A stretch of DNA of 26,297 nt from a virus: IMG/VR virus record IMGVR_UViG_3300033151_000021, positions 1 through 26,297 of that record. One strand, given 5' to 3'. Every line of letters starts with the position of its first letter. Positions within the stretch are counted from its first letter, which is position 1. Under the pieces are notes generated by a model. The model saw only the letters and a program-made list of their open reading frames with translations, did not search any database and was not told where the DNA came from. Both the position numbers and the translations under genes were made by a program. Positions 5,382-26,297 of the stretch are shown in pieces.

Positions 5382-5813
5382 TTAAATATTTTTAATTAAT
5401 TCATGAGAAGGACTTTCATCTACTGTCCAACCTAATTCTTTATGTGTATTGATTAAGTGTTTGTTTCTACCAATACTTAAGTGTTTGTTTCTACCAATAC
5501 TAAACATGTGCACTTTACCTAAATTCTTGCATAAATTCTCCGCTGAACTTATAAGTAATTTTATTGCATCTTTACGATCTTTGTCTCTATACTCTGGGTC
5601 TGATACAATCCATTCAAGTAATACTGCATCTGAATTTGTCATGTATAAAAAACCAGCACATATTGGTCTCCCGTTTTTTTCAACCATTAAACCTCCTTTA
5701 CCATTATCTGGTAAAAATGTTTTAGGTGGATTAACCCAGTCTGGCCAAGATTCCCACCATTTACAAAGTGTATCCCAGTCTTCGTTTTTTAATAAACGTG
5801 ATTTTAATTTCAT
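5382..5813 (-). CDS. GNAT-like N-acetyltransferase
   Basis: A 143-residue protein with the layout of a compact Gcn5-related acetyltransferase: an N-terminal helix with paired Trp residues (WWESWPDW), a beta strand pair around GGLMVEKNGRPICAGFLY, the central strand AVLLEWIVSDPEYRDKDRK leading into the helix where acetyl-CoA would bind (residues about 80-95), and a C-terminal part ending LINTHKELGW, which matches the common 'N...L..T..K.GF' end of GNAT proteins. Such genes are frequently embedded in tail modules of marine phages; their target is unknown. It contains a perfect 8-residue tandem duplication (SIGRNKHL twice) just before the LINTHKELGW segment. It lies 5 bp after the 782-aa tail gene and 2 bp before the small virion protein. 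Confidence 0.7.
   Translation of the reverse strand: MKLKSRLLKNEDWDTLCKWWESWPDWVNPPKTFLPDNGKGGLMVEKNGRPICAGFLYMTNSDAVLLEWIVSDPEYRDKDRKDAIKLLISSAENLCKNLGKVHMFSIGRNKHLSIGRNKHLINTHKELGWTVDESPSHELIKNI
5453..5501 (-). repeat. Perfect 24-bp tandem duplication inside the acetyltransferase gene
   Basis: Two identical 24-base units (5454-5477 and 5478-5501) stand head to tail; the period-24 match extends one base further to 5453. They encode SIGRNKHL twice in frame. The lack of any silent difference suggests a recent duplication or an assembly artefact. Confidence 0.95.
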
Positions 5814-5818
5814 ATAAT

Positions 5819-8167
5819 TTAATAGCTTGATACCACGTATCTAGATCCTACAGCCCACAACTCTTTTGCTCCAGCTATATCTGTAAGATTATCTGTAGAC
5901 ATTGTTACTGTTACATATCTACCTTTAATACCTGATATTTGATTTCCATATAACACTTCACCATTAGTTGCAGTGCTATTGTTTTTAATTACTCCATAAT
6001 ACTTGTTTTCTTTTAAATCAAACCCGTATCTATATATAGGTGAACCCATAGGGTTTGGAGTTACAAACGTATTACCAGCATCATCATAAGCGCCACCATA
6101 GTAACTAGGTATTTCTGGAGCTGTGTCATTAGTGCTAACATAATTACCTAAAGGATTTGACGTATAAGAACTATAAGTAAATCTTTGAGAATCAGATACA
6201 ATACTGTCCGCTTGCCAACCGTTATCTCCTTCATAGTTTAATGTTAGAAAGTTTTTACTAACACCAAAATTAGCGTTAAAAACAAATTCAATACTAGATT
6301 TATTATATATTCCATAGAATATATTTCTGTTGTTGTTAGAAGAAAGGGTTGTACCATTTTGAGCATAGTGTTGATATATATCCTTACTTTTTATAGAATA
6401 GTATTTATTCTTTAAACTAAGCATAAAGGTAGGTTTGTAAGTATAAAAACTACTCCAACCCCTAACTAACTCATCATAAGCTAACGTATTATATGTAGCG
6501 TTATCTCCAGATCCTACATCAACAATACCACTACTAGTTATTTTTAATGTTGCATTGTTGTTTCCACCTACTATAGTAATCACATCATTTACGTTATAAT
6601 TACCATTTCCAAAGCTATTAACTACAACTCCTGTAATTATACCACTTGCGGCTGGATTAGCAACTATGTCAACAGTCATACCAGAGCCTATACTAGGTGT
6701 AGCTGCAGTGGTAGCCACATTAGTTGCTGTGATATAACCACTACCACCCGCTTGTAAAGTAAATGTTGGAGCATTTATTAATTGAGATGCCCAAGTTGGT
6801 TCTTTTTGTATCGATACTACATAGTTTCTATTATGTACATCAAAACCACCTACAATTTGACCTTTAGCCGGAGTAACAAAAGCAAGGCCATTACCAGCAG
6901 TAACACTTATATTTCTATTAAAAGTAACTGTCTTACCAGCTATGTTTATTATTATTATATCTTTACCACTAGCTGAATCTATTTGCTTAGCGCCGTTTAT
7001 CCATAGCTGCATACCTTTTTGAGCATTGTTTAGTAACGATGCTGACTGTACTATAGTTAATTGATTTGTTGATGAAGATGCTGAAGCAGTTATTGTATAC
7101 GCTGCCTGTAAACTACCAACAATTATCTCTGTTTCCTCTGGTAAAGCTGTTAATTGATCTCTAAAATAATCAATCATACCATATTGAGATATTTCAGTAA
7201 GACCATCACGTGATAATCTAAGCACGCTGTTTCTATCTTTATCAACAAAGTATCTTCTAAATCCAAAGTAAGCAAAGCTTTCTGGGTTTCTACTTATACC
7301 AAAGTCACCCGCATAAGGAACTGCTTGCCCTATCACTTGAGTCGTGGAGGTTAAAGTAGCATTTCCTTCAGCTGAATATATAGCATCTTTATCTATTAAA
7401 GCTGTATTAACTTTGTTCTCTTGTAGTACAATTAGGTTATTATCTTCAGCATGTAATTTCTGTATAGATCCATATACTGGTGATAATGATTTAGTTATAT
7501 CCTCACCTATAGAAAATTGATTAGTATTATTTACACCTGTTCTAGAATTGAATATACCAGAATATATAAGTGAATTAAATCTATTTTCTTGAGAAGACTC
7601 TTGCTCTGCTAAATAAGCTAATACACCTATATCTACTTGAGCATTATTATAACCACCTCTAATTCTAGACTCTTCTACAAAAAAATTATTGTTAATATTT
7701 GTTTTATCTATAGTGCCTGGAAAATTAAGTTTTTTAGTAGCGGTACTTGTAGTATCAACATGTAATACTCTTATAGTAAAAGCACCACCAGCAGGCGTAG
7801 GTGTTCCAGTCTGAACAACAGTTACAGAGTCACCATCTTCATAATTTCCATCACCTAAGTTTCTTATTTTTAATTTAACTATTCCTCCAGAACCATTTAC
7901 TTCTAATATATCAACAGTCATACCTGCTCCATTGCTACTAGTTGTAGATAAGTTATTAGCACTTACTGTTGTTGTTCCTAAGTTGTAATTTGAACCTGCT
8001 GTTATAACATTAACAATTATCATTTGTTGTTCAAAACTACCTGTAGTTTGAACACCATTATATGGAAAACCACCAGGACTTAATGGTGTATAAGTTGATC
8101 CAACAACTTGATTTAACTGCTTTAATAAAAACGAATTGAAAAAATTAACTTCTAAATTAACAGCCAT
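5819..8167 (-). CDS. Tail stabilisation / muzzle-type protein, second large component (782 aa)
   Basis: A 782-residue, beta-rich protein full of Asn, Thr, Ser and Gly. A conserved-looking core (residues about 155-350: FFVEESRIRGGYNN, IYSGIFNSRTGVN, IQKLHAEDNNLIVLQENKV, FRRYFVDKDRNSVLRLSRDG) has the repeated strand pattern of a beta-propeller and continues at about 434-470 and 555-665 (WSSFYTYKPTFMLSLKNKYYS, SSIEFVFN). I associate this core with the P22 gp10-like tail accessory or 'muzzle' proteins of crAss-like and related marine phages; that is recall, not a search. Three extra modules interrupt the core at about residues 51-136, 365-433 and 472-545. The gene starts 2 bp after the 1384-aa gene, so the two are probably translated together and their products probably meet in the tail. 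Confidence 0.65.
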   Translation of the reverse strand: MAVNLEVNFFNSFLLKQLNQVVGSTYTPLSPGGFPYNGVQTTGSFEQQMIIVNVITAGSNYNLGTTTVSANNLSTTSSNGAGMTVDILEVNGSGGIVKLKIRNLGDGNYEDGDSVTVVQTGTPTPAGGAFTIRVLHVDTTSTATKKLNFPGTIDKTNINNNFFVEESRIRGGYNNAQVDIGVLAYLAEQESSQENRFNSLIYSGIFNSRTGVNNTNQFSIGEDITKSLSPVYGSIQKLHAEDNNLIVLQENKVNTALIDKDAIYSAEGNATLTSTTQVIGQAVPYAGDFGISRNPESFAYFGFRRYFVDKDRNSVLRLSRDGLTEISQYGMIDYFRDQLTALPEETEIIVGSLQAAYTITASASSSTNQLTIVQSASLLNNAQKGMQLWINGAKQIDSASGKDIIIINIAGKTVTFNRNISVTAGNGLAFVTPAKGQIVGGFDVHNRNYVVSIQKEPTWASQLINAPTFTLQAGGSGYITATNVATTAATPSIGSGMTVDIVANPAASGIITGVVVNSFGNGNYNVNDVITIVGGNNNATLKITSSGIVDVGSGDNATYNTLAYDELVRGWSSFYTYKPTFMLSLKNKYYSIKSKDIYQHYAQNGTTLSSNNNRNIFYGIYNKSSIEFVFNANFGVSKNFLTLNYEGDNGWQADSIVSDSQRFTYSSYTSNPLGNYVSTNDTAPEIPSYYGGAYDDAGNTFVTPNPMGSPIYRYGFDLKENKYYGVIKNNSTATNGEVLYGNQISGIKGRYVTVTMSTDNLTDIAGAKELWAVGSRYVVSSY
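6533..6754 (-). repeat. Gly-rich beta module A, copy in 782-aa tail protein (residues 472-545)
   Basis: Pattern GGSGY...GSGMTVDI...GIITGVVV...GNGNYNVNDVITIVGG...LKI. Same pattern as the copies at 7760-8017, 10270-10488 and 8431-8682. It sits inside the conserved core, between TWASQL and the YNTLAYDELVRGW segment. Confidence 0.75.
6869..7075 (-). repeat. Beta module B, copy in 782-aa tail protein (residues 365-433)
   Basis: Pattern of alternating strands ending KTVTFNRNISVTAGNGLAFVTP. It corresponds to ATTVTFSGAVTLIVGDDIAFAQP in the 1384-aa protein (11461-11640). Confidence 0.6.
7760..8017 (-). repeat. Gly-rich beta module A, copy in 782-aa tail protein (residues 51-136)
   Basis: Pattern SNYNLGT...NGAGMTVDILEV...GIVKLKIRNLGDGNYEDGDSVTV...FTIRV. 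This copy lies near the N-terminus, just before the conserved core. Confidence 0.75.
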
Positions 8168-8169
8168 AG

Positions 8170-11100
8170 TTATTGGTTTTTAAGTTGCATGTATATAGTA
8201 TAACCATCTATATTTCCATTATTAAGATTAGTACCTTCTATCAATTGAGTCCAAAATCCTGATTGATATATTAAACTACCACTATTTAAAGTAACTTTAG
8301 TTCCGATAGCAAGAGCACCTGTAACACCAGGTGTTCCCCTCCATAATTGTATTTCTAGCTTAGTTCCTGATGGAATACTTGCTAGTGATCCAGCAGAAAC
8401 TCCATTCACACGAGCTTCCATTCGAGTACCAAGATCTAGTTCAATCACGGAATTAGTACCACTAGTTCCTAAAATATTTAAAAACTCACCTGTTTGATAC
8501 TGAGCATTACCTGGTGAAATTATTTGAATAGTGTTTGGATTAGATACCCTTAATTGACCGAGCGCGTTAGAAAAAGCATCTACTGCAAGACCGCTTCCAT
8601 TTTGTGGTGGTGGTGGTGTACTGTTGTATGACGTTGATAAAAGAGATAAACTACCATTCGAGTAACCATTACCACTACTTGAAGATACTATTTTTGGAAC
8701 GTTAGTAGGTGGGTAACTAGTTAAAAGTCCACTAGATGAAGAGTATCTATACTCACCTTGAGTTGACGATCCAATACTACCTGTTGGTGTAGCTCCAGAA
8801 GAACCGCCAATTAGAGTTGTAAGAGGTATCGAATATGGGGTACCGCTAAAAAAGAAACTAGTTTCTAATTTAATAGCTTGAGTACTGTTCGTAGCTAAAT
8901 AATCAAACCAAAACCTAAAAGGTACATTATTTTGAGGATTTACTGTTACACTTGTAGTTTCTGTATCAGTAAGTCCACCGCCGTCTGTTAACGTAACCGT
9001 AACAGCATAGGTTCCAGGTGTTGGATAAGAGTTCAAAGATATTTGAGTACCATCAGATAATATTGTAAAACCATAATTATTAGAATCAGTAACACTAGAG
9101 CTATTTAAAACACCACCTGGTTCTATTGAATATTGAAGACCTACTTTCTTGTCTGCAGCTAACGCACCTGCGTTAACACCATTTGTTGATCCAGTATTGA
9201 AACTACTACCTGATATAGCACCTGTACTCGATACGGATAATGTAGCAGGAAAAGTTCCAATGTTAGGTAAAGAGTTAGTTAACGTACCTGTAATATTAAG
9301 ATTAGTACTAACTGATGGATCTGAAACTAAAGAACACGCTATAGTAAAAATAAAAGTATTATTTGCTGCTACAGAACTAAAAGGAAAAAATGCTGTTGTT
9401 GAAATATAGAATCCTGCTCCAGCTGGATCACTTGTAAGAGTAAATGGAAATGGTATTACAGGTCCTGTTGACGCGTTGTTATATTGTAAAAGCGATCCGT
9501 TACCGTCTACAACATTTACTAAAGAATATGTTCTATTTGTAATTGTATTTCCATTAAAATCTACAGCTCTAATCCTACTACCCGCGCTACCAAGAACGTC
9601 TGTTCCTATAGGGTCAGATTCATTTTGAGTGTAATTAGCTGCTGTAAAACCTACGGGAATACTTCCAGTGGTGGCTGAAATGTTGTTTAAGTCTTCAACT
9701 AATCCAGTTGTACTTGTTTCGTAGTATATATCTAATGATGACTCTACAGCTTCTGTTTCTAAAACAGCTAATTGAGGTATCATGCTTGTATTATTAGAAG
9801 CTCCTTTAGCACCAAGAGTTTTGCCAGTTGATATTCTAGCTATAGAAGGTTTTATTATAAATTGATAAAAACTTTCTTCACCAAAACTACTGAGATTTGC
9901 TGCTGTAAAATCTAAATCATCAGTGTCAGCTATGATAGAAACAGTATCTGGTAACACGTCAGGTTGATATTGATTAGAAAAACTTACACCAGCAACAGGT
10001 TGTGTATTCACAACTCTACCAAAAAGCTCTACAGAACTTCTAAATTTTCTTTGCTCAGGTCCTACTTCATTTAAATCTCTAGGCACTTTGTTAATATTGT
10101 CATTTAACAAAACCATATGTGATGTGCTTCCAGTTTCATTAGTAGGGAAAGTGCTAGGAGTTTGAGGGTCTGGATAACCATCTAAAATACCAGGAACATA
10201 GACATTGTAATAATCTTGCTCTGTTTGCCTTACAACTAATTTATAAGAATACCATCCCAGTGGATTAGGTTCTTTTAAAAACTGAACTGTAACTGTACCG
10301 TTTGATCCTCCAGAAATATTTACAACATCACCTTCAACATAACCTTCACCAGCTTTATTTATAATTGGTAATGCCGTTATAACACCACTACCATTTGTAG
10401 TTATATTTACAGTTAAACCAGTTCCACTACCTCCAGTAGTTTCAGCTTCTTGATTAGTTACACTTGCTGGATACCCGGTTCCAGCTGCAAATGCAGAGAA
10501 TGTATCCACAGCACCTATAGGAATGTATACACCAGGATAACCCTGTAAACCAGATATTGATTCAGGTATAACTGCATTACTATTTTCAGCTGTATCAAAT
10601 AAAACTTTTAAAGCAAGCCCTGGAAAGTTAAGTACACTCGGTGTTTGGTATGGATTATAAAGTGTTGAACCTATATATGATTGAGTTGATCCACCTGGTG
10701 TTATTTTTTTATCTCTCGATGATAATATAGTTGTTGAAGATCTACCATATCTGTCAGAAAGAACGACACCTACCTGGTAGTTTCTATTTTGTTTTAAAGT
10801 GCTACTAGGAAATTCTATCTGACTATATATACCAGAGGCTGTAGAATAACCAGTTTTAAAACCTTGCCCTACACCATAGTTTAAAGATGATGGGGATGTG
10901 TGTTTATCTATAAAGTTACCATATATTATTCTATTACTAACAGCTTCTTGAGAAAAAGCTCTTACTGGTACTTTGTCATATACTCTAGTTATTTGATCTG
11001 AAGGTAAAGTTCTATATGGTTTTGTAGATATGTACGTGTATGTATATATTTCTTTGTTAGCATTTAGTTTCATATTACTAAGAACATCTGCTATCGGTAT

Positions 11101-12324
11101 TGATTCTACTGATTTTATAGATATTTGATCAGATTCTTTATACAGTATTTCTACCTGATTAATATGGAATTTTGTTTGAGGATTATCTGTATCGCTAATC
11201 CACTCACAAGGCATTTTTATATTTAATATAGCTTGTGCTACATTATTTTCCATAAATCTAATAATACTACTTCTATAAGCTTGTTCGCTATCTTCTGTTA
11301 TAAAGTATCCATTTTGTTTTGGTATATAACAAACTTGGCTAAATGGTGCTATCAAGGAATATTCACCATCATCAAAAACAAATCTATAACTAAACCTTAC
11401 AAATTTTGTAGATAAATATTCTGGATCACCACCAAAGTTTTCATCATATTCAGGGTTTGGCTGAGCGAAAGCAATGTCGTCTCCAACTATTAAAGTAACT
11501 GCACCTGAAAAAGTTACAGTCGTAGCGGTTGCTGTTAGTACAATTTTACCATTTAAATCAGCATTGCTTTTACTAATTATTTTTGAACCTACTGTAGGCA
11601 CATATGTAGTACCACTAATCGCTGTAAAAGTGGCTGTTGTTACCGTTCCTACAGGTGCTACTATTCCAGAAGACATGTTTATAGTAAGAAACTCTTGTGA
11701 AGGATTTGATAATGTAGACCTTAAATTATTATTATAGGCTAAGTCAATAAATTTAACTGGCTCGTATGGTGCATATTTAGCTACAGATATTTGATCTTCT
11801 GTAGTATAATAACTTGGATTTAAATTACTACTACTTGTGTTCGCTAGTTTTACGTTTATTTTTCTAGGTTGATTTCTGTAGTCTGTAAAAAACAATAAAT
11901 CTTCTATTATACTTATACCATATATAGGACTGTTCTTTGAAAAGTTAAGAAAATAACCCTGCACTAAGCGAGTAAAAGTGTTTGAAATATTATTAAAACT
12001 GTAAATAAAGCAATTAGCTGTAGTTGGTGCAAAGTTGCTTATACCATCTAAAGATGAATCAACATAGTCTGTTAAAAAAAAATATACATTATTCTCTGAA
12101 GGATCTACATAGTAACCTATAACATCTAGGTTTTCATATGAAGATAAACCAGCATTTGCTATAATGTTATTACCTTCTATATTCTCTAAAGCTCCAACGT
12201 CTTCACCCTGTGATCTACTAATAGCCACGTTTTGTGCTGTTCTATACTCACCTTTAGGAACCAAACGATCATCAAGATCTTGGTTCATTTTAGATTGTAC
12301 AAAATTATTTTGAATATCTGGCAT
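8170..12324 (-). CDS. Large tail stabilisation / muzzle-type protein with Ig-like insert (1384 aa)
   Basis: A 1384-residue protein. The N-terminus (residues 12-48, SKMNQDLDDRLVPKGEYR then a DVGALENIEGN segment) matches the opening common to P22 gp10-like tail accessory proteins, followed by propeller-like strands (YENLDVIGYYVDPSENNVYFF, PIYGISIIEDLLFFTDYRN). Later parts: module B at 229-288; a conserved mixed region about 300-600; module A at 613-685; a bacterial Ig/cadherin-like region at about 905-1130 ending GTYAVTVTLTDGGGLTDTETT; a Ser/Gly/Pro-rich linker; a second A-like module at about 1215-1298; and a C-terminal beta domain. It is long for this family because of these inserts. In the virion it would form the distal tail tube or plug below the adaptors. 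It starts 6 bp after the 407-aa adaptor gene. Confidence 0.72.
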   Translation of the reverse strand: MPDIQNNFVQSKMNQDLDDRLVPKGEYRTAQNVAISRSQGEDVGALENIEGNNIIANAGLSSYENLDVIGYYVDPSENNVYFFLTDYVDSSLDGISNFAPTTANCFIYSFNNISNTFTRLVQGYFLNFSKNSPIYGISIIEDLLFFTDYRNQPRKINVKLANTSSSNLNPSYYTTEDQISVAKYAPYEPVKFIDLAYNNNLRSTLSNPSQEFLTINMSSGIVAPVGTVTTATFTAISGTTYVPTVGSKIISKSNADLNGKIVLTATATTVTFSGAVTLIVGDDIAFAQPNPEYDENFGGDPEYLSTKFVRFSYRFVFDDGEYSLIAPFSQVCYIPKQNGYFITEDSEQAYRSSIIRFMENNVAQAILNIKMPCEWISDTDNPQTKFHINQVEILYKESDQISIKSVESIPIADVLSNMKLNANKEIYTYTYISTKPYRTLPSDQITRVYDKVPVRAFSQEAVSNRIIYGNFIDKHTSPSSLNYGVGQGFKTGYSTASGIYSQIEFPSSTLKQNRNYQVGVVLSDRYGRSSTTILSSRDKKITPGGSTQSYIGSTLYNPYQTPSVLNFPGLALKVLFDTAENSNAVIPESISGLQGYPGVYIPIGAVDTFSAFAAGTGYPASVTNQEAETTGGSGTGLTVNITTNGSGVITALPIINKAGEGYVEGDVVNISGGSNGTVTVQFLKEPNPLGWYSYKLVVRQTEQDYYNVYVPGILDGYPDPQTPSTFPTNETGSTSHMVLLNDNINKVPRDLNEVGPEQRKFRSSVELFGRVVNTQPVAGVSFSNQYQPDVLPDTVSIIADTDDLDFTAANLSSFGEESFYQFIIKPSIARISTGKTLGAKGASNNTSMIPQLAVLETEAVESSLDIYYETSTTGLVEDLNNISATTGSIPVGFTAANYTQNESDPIGTDVLGSAGSRIRAVDFNGNTITNRTYSLVNVVDGNGSLLQYNNASTGPVIPFPFTLTSDPAGAGFYISTTAFFPFSSVAANNTFIFTIACSLVSDPSVSTNLNITGTLTNSLPNIGTFPATLSVSSTGAISGSSFNTGSTNGVNAGALAADKKVGLQYSIEPGGVLNSSSVTDSNNYGFTILSDGTQISLNSYPTPGTYAVTVTLTDGGGLTDTETTSVTVNPQNNVPFRFWFDYLATNSTQAIKLETSFFFSGTPYSIPLTTLIGGSSGATPTGSIGSSTQGEYRYSSSSGLLTSYPPTNVPKIVSSSSGNGYSNGSLSLLSTSYNSTPPPPQNGSGLAVDAFSNALGQLRVSNPNTIQIISPGNAQYQTGEFLNILGTSGTNSVIELDLGTRMEARVNGVSAGSLASIPSGTKLEIQLWRGTPGVTGALAIGTKVTLNSGSLIYQSGFWTQLIEGTNLNNGNIDGYTIYMQLKNQ
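8431..8682 (-). repeat. Degenerate module A in the C-terminal part of the 1384-aa tail protein (residues 1215-1298)
   Basis: Pattern SSSGNGYSNGS, PPPPQNGSGLAVDAF, then NAQYQTGEFLNILG and SVIELDL. The order of elements is the same as in the other A copies, but the match is weaker. Confidence 0.5.
10270..10488 (-). repeat. Gly-rich beta module A in 1384-aa tail protein (residues 613-685)
   Basis: Pattern AAGTGYPAS...GSGTGLTVNITTNGSG...ITALPIINKAGEGYVEGDVVNISGG...VTVQFL. Closest in layout to the copy at 6533-6754. Confidence 0.75.
11461..11640 (-). repeat. Beta module B in 1384-aa tail protein (residues 229-288)
   Basis: Pattern TATFTAISGTTYVPTVGSKI...GKIVLTATATTVTFSGAV...GDDIAFAQP. Partner of the copy at 6869-7075. 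It is inserted between the conserved SQEFLTINMSS and the Tyr/Phe-rich strand region after residue 300. Confidence 0.6.
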
Positions 12325-13557: not shown

Positions 13558-14310
13558 TTAACTTTTTGAATTTACTTCTTCAGCTTGAACAGCTTGAGCT
13601 GCGGCTTGAACTATTTGTGGATCTCTTATAACAACACCAGCGTATGCAAGTATTCTAATTATAACTTCTGTTTGCTCTGTATTATCAAGCTCGAACTGAG
13701 TTGAATCACCAGCATTATATATGTAAGGACCAGAAGTCCAAGTACCACCACCAAGTTGTTGAAAAGCCCAAACAACATCTGCGGGTTTACGTATATAACT
13801 AACAGTGATGTCAGCCGCCGTATTTATTGTAGTAGGTTTAACAAACATATGAGGTTGTCCTGTGTTACCGCCTGAGGTACCTGCAGTAGCTTGTTCATAT
13901 AAATAAACAGGGAATTGAGTTGTGGGTCTTGTTAAAGGAGAGAGATTTATATTTAAAAAATCACTACGCTCTACACGTTGTAATTCTTTTTCGTCTCTGT
14001 ATATTACCGCGCCTATTCTATGCAAATTAGAAGGTGGTAGAAAATAACCACCAGCTACATCATAAGTGGCATTACCTATAGTTTTAAATATAGATATACA
14101 GTTGTCAATATTTTTTTGTCTGTTAGCGTATTCACTATCAGTCTGTGGCACTCGTAGTTGCTGGTTAAGATCTTCAAAATAATTTTCAAAAATTTCTAAC
14201 TGAACCTGTGTGCCTAACTTATTAAACTCTTCTGGTGTTATATAACCTCTTTGTTCTTTATTAAGAATAGACAACACTGTTGTGTAAACAGTATTTACGT
14301 TTATTGCCAT
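13558..14310 (-). CDS. Head-tail connector (ring/adaptor) protein, 250 aa
   Basis: The 250-residue product has a helical N-terminus (VNTVYTTVLSILNKEQRGYITPEEFNKL, EIFENYFEDLNQQL), a central beta part with YFLPPSNLHRIGAVIY and RVERSDFLNINLSPLTRPT, then ADITVSYIRKPADVVW, and a C-terminal helix (TEVIIRILAYAGVVIRDPQIVQAA) ending in an Ala/Gln-rich tail. This architecture, its size and its place between the capsid region and the tail adaptor fit a portal-bound ring or connector protein of podovirus-like phages. No catalytic residues are visible. It is preceded by a strong intercistronic hairpin (14327-14360) and an A/T-rich leader without Shine-Dalgarno sequence. Confidence 0.6.
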   Translation of the reverse strand: MAINVNTVYTTVLSILNKEQRGYITPEEFNKLGTQVQLEIFENYFEDLNQQLRVPQTDSEYANRQKNIDNCISIFKTIGNATYDVAGGYFLPPSNLHRIGAVIYRDEKELQRVERSDFLNINLSPLTRPTTQFPVYLYEQATAGTSGGNTGQPHMFVKPTTINTAADITVSYIRKPADVVWAFQQLGGGTWTSGPYIYNAGDSTQFELDNTEQTEVIIRILAYAGVVIRDPQIVQAAAQAVQAEEVNSKS

Positions 14311-24027: not shown

Positions 24028-24273
24028 CTACACTGGTAAATCTTCGTATTCTTCTTGGTAGTCACTTGGTAAATAACTTTCCATTTCTGAAATTTGTTCA
24101 GCGCTTAACTCATCTTTATAAAAGTCATTTGCTAAAACCCATTTAAAATGTTCTTTGATTGCTTCAACATTTTCATCAGAACCTATCTGTGATAGTTGGT
24201 CTGGTATCTGTGAAGTAATTACCTCTTTGTGGCTTTCTTCTGTATTTTCTGATGTTATTACGTTTTTGTACAT
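24028..24273 (-). CDS. Small acidic protein overlapping the end of the tail fibre gene (81 aa)
   Basis: An 81-residue acidic protein (MYKNVITSENTEESHKEV, then VEAIKEHFKWVLANDFYKDE and LSAEQISEMESYLPSDYQEEYEDLPV). It begins 98 bases inside the fibre gene, in the +1 frame relative to it, immediately at a run of six A (24273-24278). It could be a separate fibre-associated protein made by coupled re-initiation, as small genes after tail fibres often are, or the true C-terminus of the fibre reached by slippage on the A run. An in-frame TAA lies two codons before the ATG. No other start fits. Confidence 0.5.
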   Translation of the reverse strand: MYKNVITSENTEESHKEVITSQIPDQLSQIGSDENVEAIKEHFKWVLANDFYKDELSAEQISEMESYLPSDYQEEYEDLPV

Positions 24274-26297
24274 TTTTTACAAGTTTTCCATAACTTAATT
24301 CTAACTTATCTGGGTTTTCATCATATACTAATCGTAAAGTATCGTTGTCTAATTCTTTAACTTCTTGTGCTATAAACCCAAAGTCTTTTTTACCTTTATT
24401 GGCTGAATAAAATTCTACTTCTTCAACTGTATCATCATCATTTACAACAGTTTTTGTTTCTGGTCTATTATCCCAAACAAACTCTCTTGGTTGTAAAGCA
24501 TCAATAAAAGCAAGTCCGTATTTTAAATCTTTAATTTCTGATTTATCTCTTTCGTCTGAAAGTGAAGTTATTGAAGTAACTGCACAACGTAAAGATGTTA
24601 TATTTGAATCGCCTAAAGTTATTTCATTTGAAACAGTTGCACTTGAGGGAGTTGAACCATTACCAATAGCAATATTATTACTACCAGTTGTCGCTGTATC
24701 TCCAGCATTATTACCTATGTAAGTATTATTATTACCAGTAGTTATATCACTACCAGCTGTTCTTCCGACACAAGTATTATCATTCGCACCAGTTCCTAAA
24801 CTAAAGCCCATAGACCTCCAACCAATAGATACGTTACCAGTACAAGCGTTTGGAGTAGAACCAGCACCTAATGACCGACCACCAATAGCTACGTTTGAAT
24901 TTCCAGCATTAGTCAATGTGCTACCAGCTTGATTACCTATATAAACAGCTTCTATATTACTTGTTGTTGTTGTAGATTTACCAGCTTGATAACCTATAAA
25001 AACACCTTTACTTCCGATTGTCATTGCTGCACCAGCTTCATAACCTATCATAACGTGATTTGAACCAGTTGTAATCGAATAACCAGCTCGATAACCTAAC
25101 GTAACATTATTGTCACCAGATGCTAAACTATTTGCAGCTTGATGACCTACTACTACGTTTGATTCACCGCTGTAACCAGCTGCGGACAAACAGTTAGCAC
25201 CAATAGCTATTGTAGAATTTGCTCCAGAAGTTGTATTAGCTGCCATATAGTTTCCTATAAAAACCGAATTACTTGCAGCAGAACCACTTTCCATAACACC
25301 TTGTCCTATCGCTATGGTTTGAGAACCGCTACCAGAACCCTTTCCAGCACCTTTACCTAAAAATACGTTATTACTTCCAGTATTGTTTAACCCAGCTTCA
25401 TATCCTACATTTACTTTACTTCCGCCAACTGTATTAGCATACCCAGCTTGGTAACCTAAATTTGTATTTGCACTTCCAGAAGTGTTTGAGTAACCAGCTT
25501 GGTAACCTATTGAAGTGTGTCCAGCAGAAGTCGTACTTCTTCCAGCTTCTTTACCAATAGCTACTGAATTTGTTTTACTTGCACCGCTACCAAAAGCAAA
25601 CGCTTGATAACCAATAGCAACTATATTTTCAGCAGATTGAGACCCAGCACTTTTACCAATAACAACAGCGTTTGTAGTAACATTATCGGTTCCAGCATTT
25701 ACACCAATAACAACAGCGTTGTTCCCTGTTGATGCAAATTTAGCTCCATAACCAACAACAACTGAATCTGTGAAATTTGCTCCATCCGCCCCTGCTCTTG
25801 CTCCTATTATTGTATTAAATGTGCCTGTAGTAATTCTTTTTCCAGTTTCTGAATCTCCTAAAATTGTATTTGAATGACCAGTTGTTAAGCTTGTTCCTCC
25901 TTGTATCGTTAAATTGTCAATAGGAGTTCCACTTAATCCACTTGGTATATTTACAAAATAACTTGAAATAGATGTGCCAGAGTTTTGAATACTTACATCA
26001 CTTAATCCATTCAAGCTTGATGCACCTCCGCCACCACCAGATTGTAATTCTAATTTACCTGCCGAAGCGTTATATGTTAAAACATCGCCGTTACTTGCTC
26101 CTGATTGTAATCCCGGTATTCTTAAAGATGTAACTGCTGCATTTCCTAAAGTTATTTCATTTGATACAGTAGCACTTGAAGCCTCTGCATCATAACCTAT
26201 TAATGTAACATTTGAACCTGTATATGTAGCACTATTTCCAGCATATTGACCAACTACAGTATAGCCGCTTCCTGTACTAATACCAGAACCAGCGTAT
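24176..26297 (-). CDS. Tail fibre/appendage with beta-roll repeats and Peptidase S74 chaperone domain (5' end outside window)
   Basis: At least 706 residues are visible. The frame is open to the right edge, so TTG at 26014 is only an internal Leu codon, not a start. Upstream residues read YAGSGISTGSGYTVVGQYAG and on into GGGGGASSLNGLSDV. The body has about 25 repeats of the type 'xxIGxxAGxxxxxGxxN' (IGYQAGYS, LGYQAGYA, VGYEAGLN, IGNNAGDT), as in YadA-like heads and other trimeric beta-rolls. Near the end LSDERDKSEIKDL marks the Peptidase S74 (intramolecular chaperone) domain, with the Ser (24557-24559) and Lys (24542-24544) expected of its self-cleaving dyad; FGFIAQEVKEL and LELSYGKLV follow. 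After YGKLV the usual hydrophobic helix is missing and a basic tail takes its place. It would trimerise, self-cleave and bind host surface glycans or proteins. Confidence 0.88.
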   Translation of the reverse strand, partial: YAGSGISTGSGYTVVGQYAGNSATYTGSNVTLIGYDAEASSATVSNEITLGNAAVTSLRIPGLQSGASNGDVLTYNASAGKLELQSGGGGGASSLNGLSDVSIQNSGTSISSYFVNIPSGLSGTPIDNLTIQGGTSLTTGHSNTILGDSETGKRITTGTFNTIIGARAGADGANFTDSVVVGYGAKFASTGNNAVVIGVNAGTDNVTTNAVVIGKSAGSQSAENIVAIGYQAFAFGSGASKTNSVAIGKEAGRSTTSAGHTSIGYQAGYSNTSGSANTNLGYQAGYANTVGGSKVNVGYEAGLNNTGSNNVFLGKGAGKGSGSGSQTIAIGQGVMESGSAASNSVFIGNYMAANTTSGANSTIAIGANCLSAAGYSGESNVVVGHQAANSLASGDNNVTLGYRAGYSITTGSNHVMIGYEAGAAMTIGSKGVFIGYQAGKSTTTTSNIEAVYIGNQAGSTLTNAGNSNVAIGGRSLGAGSTPNACTGNVSIGWRSMGFSLGTGANDNTCVGRTAGSDITTGNNNTYIGNNAGDTATTGSNNIAIGNGSTPSSATVSNEITLGDSNITSLRCAVTSITSLSDERDKSEIKDLKYGLAFIDALQPREFVWDNRPETKTVVNDDDTVEEVEFYSANKGKKDFGFIAQEVKELDNDTLRLVYDENPDKLELSYGKLVKNVQKRNNIRKYRRKPQRGNYFTDTRPTITDRF
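24612..24647 (-). repeat. Repeat connector in the fibre gene, copy 2 (before the S74 domain)
   Basis: Encodes SSATVSNEITLG, directly before the S74 domain. At DNA level it is nearly identical (3 mismatches in 36 bases) to 26145-26180. Confidence 0.8.
26145..26180 (-). repeat. Repeat connector in the fibre gene, copy 1
   Basis: Encodes SSATVSNEITLG followed by NAAVTSLR, matching DSNITSLR after copy 2. It ends the preceding block of beta-roll repeats, so the visible fibre has two blocks of repeats, each closed by the same connector. Confidence 0.8.

Follow-up and report, generated by a model that had tools for sequence, protein, structure and literature searches.

Two neighbouring genes of a marine virus of bacteria encode one muzzle (tail-tip) protein of the crassvirus type, divided into an N-terminal and a C-terminal part, and both parts carry small beta domains at sites which in related viruses can be empty, filled with the same domain or filled with another one. 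The best characterised of these domains, here called module A, has a length of approximately 80 aa and is present in the muzzle in three clear copies and one marginal copy; it is also present in tail proteins of marine viruses of a quite different kind. The stretch of DNA that was analysed, the window, is a virus record of 26,297 bases. The muzzle controls the release of cargo in a phage group that ranks among the most abundant, and its surface loops presumably touch the cell.

A crassvirus-type muzzle encoded by two genes

The 1384-aa protein P0001, which we call MUZ-N (8170..12324, minus strand), matches positions 2-180 of phrog_14478 and corresponds to the N-terminal muzzle part, and the 782-aa protein P0002, MUZ-C (5819..8167, minus strand), matches positions 919-1101 of the same family and corresponds to the C-terminal part. 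P0002 was also recognised by the Pfam model crAss_MUZ_C (PF25729) with 32.8 bits at a cut-off of 27. Both ends align with high confidence to gp44, the muzzle protein of crAss001: with gp44 aligned with four cultured relatives, hhalign placed residues 1-478 of P0001 on gp44 1-319 at 100% and residues 207-773 of P0002 on gp44 1037-1365 at 99.95%, and with gp44 as a lone sequence the alignments were shorter (P0001 11-161 at 90%, P0002 561-660 at 96%). The top fold matches of the AlphaFold model of P0002 (mean pLDDT 64.9) were the gp44 structures 7qol (Z 14.7) and 7qok (Z 14.3), which superimposed over 309-311 residues with an rmsd of 4.4-4.5; the next-ranked structure reached Z 10.0. A profile search with P0002 against PDB sequences returned no match. 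Because of the phrog_14478 and Pfam profiles, the gp44 alignments and the fold match to 7qol/7qok, the two proteins are identified as a crassvirus-type muzzle protein in two pieces, with P0001 as the N-terminal and P0002 as the C-terminal one.

The likeness to gp44 includes the gene order, with the muzzle gene located downstream of the head and ring genes, and the occurrence of insertions, which are known in the family. According to the crAss001 structure paper, the crassvirus muzzle is a hexameric tail tip that serves cargo ejection, and insertions in the crass and IG2 regions make muzzles differ in length (PMC10172136). In contrast to the one gene of crAss001, the window has two muzzle genes, which are separated by a gap of 2 bases (window 8165-8172). 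All 64 viral loci in which both parts could be located show the same arrangement, in a sample that is biased toward the relatives of the window, since these loci were retrieved with queries derived from it. The muzzle is one annotated gene in crAss001 and in four cultured phages of Flavobacteriia, namely Cellulophaga phi38:1 and phi13:2, Tenacibaculum Gundel_1 and Flavobacterium elemoF. The single chain, a feature of gp44 that the source does not give as defining for muzzles, is absent in the window, and we classed the window muzzle as a split homologue.

A different junction was seen in Maribacter phage Panino (L087, 6001-6422), in which the muzzle match extends from the last part of an annotated gene into the first part of the following one. 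This junction is located inside the conserved core, which suggests that a break or frameshift has occurred elsewhere than at the split of the window.

Inserted modules, their sites and their history

Module A was searched with a profile trained on 31 copies from outside the window, together with 6066 decoys that were made from 1011 ORFs (one reversed version and five local shuffles of each). The top decoy reached 12.2 bits and none exceeded 15 bits, a value surpassed by 36 real stretches. The first-pass annotation of this DNA had placed module A twice in the 782-aa protein (7760-8017 and 6533-6754), and both copies were recovered with slightly wider bounds, namely A1 at site C1 (7751..8023, minus strand; P0002 residues 49-139) with 46.8 bits and A2 at site C3 (6527..6772, minus strand; P0002 residues 466-547) with 39.8 bits. 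In the 1384-aa protein it had seen one copy and probably a second one (10270-10488 and 8431-8682); here, A3 at site N2 (10273..10509, minus strand; P0001 residues 606-684) obtained 62.9 bits, and A4 in the variable C-terminal tail of MUZ-N (8425..8700, minus strand; P0001 residues 1209-1300) a marginal 15.9 bits.

The pairs formed by A1, A2 and A3 were matched by 0 of 1000 shuffles in Smith-Waterman alignments, and the pairs involving A4 by 1, 0 and 4 of 1000. When the module A sets from N2, C1 and N1 of other phages and the C3 copy of the window were compared profile to profile, five of six pairs reached 93-99%, and the sixth, the N1 set versus the C3 copy, 43%; A4 gave 62-65% with the N2 and C1 sets and 9-11% with the other two. 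Hence, A4 exceeds every decoy and yet represents a marginal, putative copy, for which no counterpart was found in the MUZ-N tails of L010, L020, L007 and L008. Since the A copies score above every decoy, the objection that they align no better than random Gly/Asn-rich beta sequence fails. The copies have diverged, as had been noticed before, and the key Gly/Tyr positions are kept across 34 copies. The GC content of the modules (0.337-0.388) is near or slightly over that of the host genes (0.327-0.340) and is uninformative.

The insertion sites were defined in alignments of MUZ-N (77 distinct proteins) and MUZ-C (60 distinct proteins), in which the site lengths were measured between fixed anchors. 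The insert lengths are bimodal and the junctions are clean. At N1, 37-54 aa were found in 11 of 76 proteins and 89-191 aa in the other 65; at N2, 0-14 aa in 27 of 77 and 74-203 aa, counting any insert, in 50. Site C1 is less clean, with 20-59 aa in 33 and 77-164 aa in 27 of the 60 proteins. Among the proteins with both anchors, C2 has 1-10 aa in 33/59 and 80-103 aa in 26/59, and C3 has 2-25 aa in 55/58 and 91-102 aa in only 3/58. These values bear out the earlier claim that the copies at 6533-6754 (site C3) and 11461-11640 (site N1) interrupt conserved core sequence. Module A occupies N1 in 3 proteins, N2 in 14, C1 in 6 and C3 in 1, i.e. in the window alone, and the same sites house other domains in other phages; N1, for example, holds module A in L040, L075 and L080 and module B in the window.

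On gp44, N1 is equivalent to position 176/177 (within IG1, 163-292), C2 to 1175-1184 and C3 to 1195/1196. In contrast to the window, where all three are filled, gp44 has no insert at these sites, and module A was not found in it. Sites N2 and C1 fall in the IG2/crass-domain part by order alone and are unaligned to gp44. By gp44 position, two of the six module copies (A2 and B1) are placed in propeller loops and B2 in the IG1-equivalent region; the remaining copies A1, A3 and A4 belong by their order to the IG2/crass-domain part.

Module B had been claimed to occur once in each protein. Copy B1 is located at site C2 in a propeller loop (about 6857..7096, minus strand; P0002 about 358-437; pLDDT mostly 68-91) and obtained 46.2 bits when scored with a C2 profile that was built from 25 inserts and excluded the window, and copy B2 is located at site N1 (about 11458..11676, minus strand; P0001 about 217-289) and obtained 59.9 bits with the N1 insert profile, again with the window excluded. 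The relation between the two sites is seen at the level of the families: with 1710 decoys for comparison, the C2 profile (25 inserts) scored 8 of 65 N1 inserts higher than the top decoy and the N1 profile (61 inserts) did so for 7 of 26 C2 inserts, all of them from relatives. For the window's own pair, Smith-Waterman alignment gave z 5.0 with 0 of 1000 shuffles as good, whereas hhalign was weak (4%, and 18% for B2 versus near relatives of B1) and both copies stayed under the top decoy in the cross-scans (6.8 vs 13.8 and 8.6 vs 11.3). Thus, the claim stands as a supported family-level homology of N1 and C2 inserts, which is weak for the pair in the window. No convincing family was found for module B in Pfam or PHROGs (DUF6383 with E 0.0023, below the cut-off).

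The history of the sites was followed on a tree of 55 loci, from which four partial ones had been dropped; it is based on 1012 columns of the core, left after every insert column had been taken out. Changes between filled and empty numbered 3 at N1, 3 at N2, 5 at C1, 1 at C2 and 2 at C3. Module A itself changed once at N1, three times at N2, twice at C1 and once at C3, i.e. at least seven times over four muzzle sites, which is in agreement with the repeated acquisition of modules proposed before, as is the finding that one site can hold module A or other inserts. A clade of nine phages has module A at N2 in common and a clade of five phages has module A at C1 together with an insert at N1; module A at C3 is found only in the window and is missing in L010, L020, L007 and L008. 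Read from the tree, the copies would have been built up stepwise toward the window, at N2, then C1 and then C3, a direction taken from unpolarised parsimony, in which a gain may also be losses elsewhere. In a tree of the module A copies, A1 clusters with the C1 copies of L007, L008, L010 and L020 (support 98/94). Among the window copies, this C1 group alone is well supported, and the module tree is generally poorly resolved, with 6 of 39 inner branches starred and 23 of 39 drawn open.

Module A beyond the muzzle and its fold

Module A is not restricted to muzzles. With a copy from L003 as query, 124 of 50,697 phage records were matched at E<=0.01, with no phage of Bacteroidota among their names, and with A3 of the window 57 of 50,697 at the same threshold. 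Most of these records belong to Synechococcus and Prochlorococcus phages, and the search with the L003 copy found rhizobial phages as well. The gp7-like baseplate protein of S-SSM4 (6932 aa; L090 8262-29060) contains seven copies and gp7 of P-SSM4 (7312 aa; L091 6832-28770) eight; altogether, the long proteins of S-SSM4, P-SSM4 and S-H25 gave 17 matches of at least 13 bits, up to 56 bits. Three weaker matches were found in a cyanophage wedge and neck protein, with 0 of 95 decoys above 8 bits. A fold search of BFVD with module A likewise retrieved cyanophage structural proteins, with 2 matches at E<=0.001. The gp7-like giants, the structural proteins with YadA domain and the neck-region proteins of T4-like cyanophages share the same domain by profile, with several copies per protein, but they belong to T4-like phages of cyanobacteria and the module-bearing proteins are other ones.

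Among viral contigs, 98 stretches were related to one module A copy; the best 80 of the 98 were analysed. The 82 ORFs that carry them fall into 19 clusters by sequence, two of which are muzzle proteins, whereby 19 is an upper count because contig ends truncate some of the ORFs. Only three relatives were found among 84,980 bacterial and archaeal genomes in a non-exhaustive scan with peptide patterns of one copy. As judged from these searches, module A is a phage-wide element that is almost missing from the cellular genomes scanned.

In the relatives L035, L036, L040 and L075, module A interrupts a ring/adaptor protein, whose sequence on either side of the insert aligns to a 250-aa protein of the window (13558..14310, minus strand), which has a weak SU10_adaptor match and is free of module A. 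L036 (4157-4903) and L075 (4294-4929) additionally possess a small gene with module A between the presumed capsid gene and a 273-aa homologue; no clear counterpart of it was found among the seven window proteins compared.

Modelled alone, module A is predicted with pLDDT 92.0 and pTM 0.78 as a domain of six strands; inside the AF2 model of the 782-aa protein its quality is poor to moderate, with ten-residue means of about 36-70. Foldseek gave no match on PDB at E<=0.001, VIA-align reached a best Z of 3.8 with the EF-Tu domain 3 barrel, which is too weak for a fold assignment, and no dedicated Pfam model matched. Domain I of the T4 tail sheath protein gp18 was considered as parent family. The Pfam model Gp18_dom_I matched 2 of 34 module A copies (best E 0.0018), and a loop motif over 19 columns is common to gp18 and module A (hhalign 58%), but there is no whole-domain match, gp18 scored 10.2 bits with the module A profile, under the decoy maximum of 12.2, and the PDB sequence match to 3fo8 had E 0.4. 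With this short motif match, gp18 as parent family is kept as no more than a lead. Ig-like and other promiscuous tail domains resemble module A as small beta domains of patchy presence on conserved tail proteins, and adhesion or stabilisation is the role proposed for such additions (PMC9230969, PMC10684548). Module A differs from them in being short, Gly-rich and six-stranded, and it was unmatched to the Ig fold by the searches run. Both gp18 and Ig domains are absent from the fold matches listed for module A, which excludes neither.

Possible origin and role of the inserts

The explanation that we favour, with somewhat more confidence than doubt, is a split muzzle with insert-tolerant sites that gained module A stepwise and whose surface decoration tunes reversible adhesion or stabilises the tip. 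The two genes would provide one muzzle in two pieces for the tail tip of a crassvirus-type short-tailed phage, in which five places (N1, N2, C1, C2 and C3) may each accept a small beta domain as a whole. Module A, a predicted 80-aa six-stranded beta domain, would be drawn from a phage-wide pool and placed in the lineage of the window in the order proposed above; in other lineages, the same sites are occupied by module B and other domains. We infer that the inserts are exposed to the solvent on the outside of a hexameric muzzle with six copies per site, where they could decorate the tip and either tune how it reversibly adheres to the cell envelope or stabilise it, with an unchanged gating core. 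Binding of carbohydrate or host, as suggested before, may be a function of module A, for which the fold searches gave no clear match to any known binding fold. The presence of module A across cyanobacterial and rhizobial phages, according to their annotated hosts, argues against one host-specific ligand; its wide spread points to an interaction that is general and weak, or to a structural role, and not to one receptor.

A purely structural function, in which the inserts cement the muzzle subunits or stabilise the tip and play no part in adhesion, appears less likely to us. It would agree with the occurrence of module A in phages of several bacterial phyla and in other structural proteins, namely ring proteins in relatives and proteins of the baseplate and neck region in cyanophages, and a survey of sheath proteins gives stabilisation as an alternative to adhesion (PMC9230969). 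However, the copy at C3 is missing in the close relatives L010, L020, L007 and L008, an indication that assembly does not require at least this one. Similarly doubtful is the assumption that the extra copies originated from duplication within the window genome and not from import, for which one could quote the four copies in this one phage and the six in L075. But the window copies resemble one another no more than they resemble those from other phages, an argument that is weak with the poorly resolved module tree, and the nearest relatives of the C3 copy are those of L039 and P-SSM4 by path and of L011 by identity (48%). Internal copying and import are indistinguishable here because the module tree, with too few columns, resolves just the C1 group.

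It is improbable that the inserts are neutral hitchhikers in loops and bring no benefit: the divergence of the copies and the different sites used between lineages speak for this reading, but the insert state is stable on deep branches, with one change at C2 over 55 rows, and the conservation of the key Gly/Tyr positions over 34 copies also speaks against it. The empty sites in relatives rule out that the modules are always present and originate from the core fold, and their descent from ancestral muzzle core parts lost in some relatives is very improbable, since, even if the filled state may be the older one at some sites (N1 filled in 65/76, N2 in 50/77), filled sites carry different domains (A, B or others) per lineage, module A was found neither in the muzzle gp44 nor in those of five cultured relatives (0/5) and C3 is filled in just 3/58.

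Coming back to stepwise gain on a split muzzle, a wider generalisation, to which we give slightly less than even credence, would regard the muzzle as a cassette board with fixed sites and interchangeable beta domains of approximately 80-100 aa. Virus-borne module A would then have moved between unrelated tail machines, i.e. crassvirus-type muzzles and rings and T4-like baseplates and necks, in phages of different host phyla, and would serve as a general tail decoration.

Insertions into muzzles are known in general, so the case belongs to a known kind of evolution; new are the named sites and cassettes, their history, the sites in the IG1-equivalent and propeller regions and the sharing with cyanophage baseplates. 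In titles and abstracts, mostly of non-subscription literature, on crassvirus muzzles, split muzzles, marine crAss-like insertions, Ig-like tail domains, gp18, cyanophage structures and domain shuffling, no description of these cassettes was found. With named sites that can be empty, carry module A or carry another domain, the general remark on length variation turns into a testable system, and the module A family connects the tails of crassvirus-type phages with those of cyanobacterial phages.

Two further proteins of the window contain repeats. The translation of a 143-aa protein (window 5382-5813) has the stretch SIGRNKHL in tandem copy, and a large protein at window 24176-26296 has many short glycine-rich repeats and a C-terminal stretch that presumably resembles the phage chaperone/endosialidase domain.
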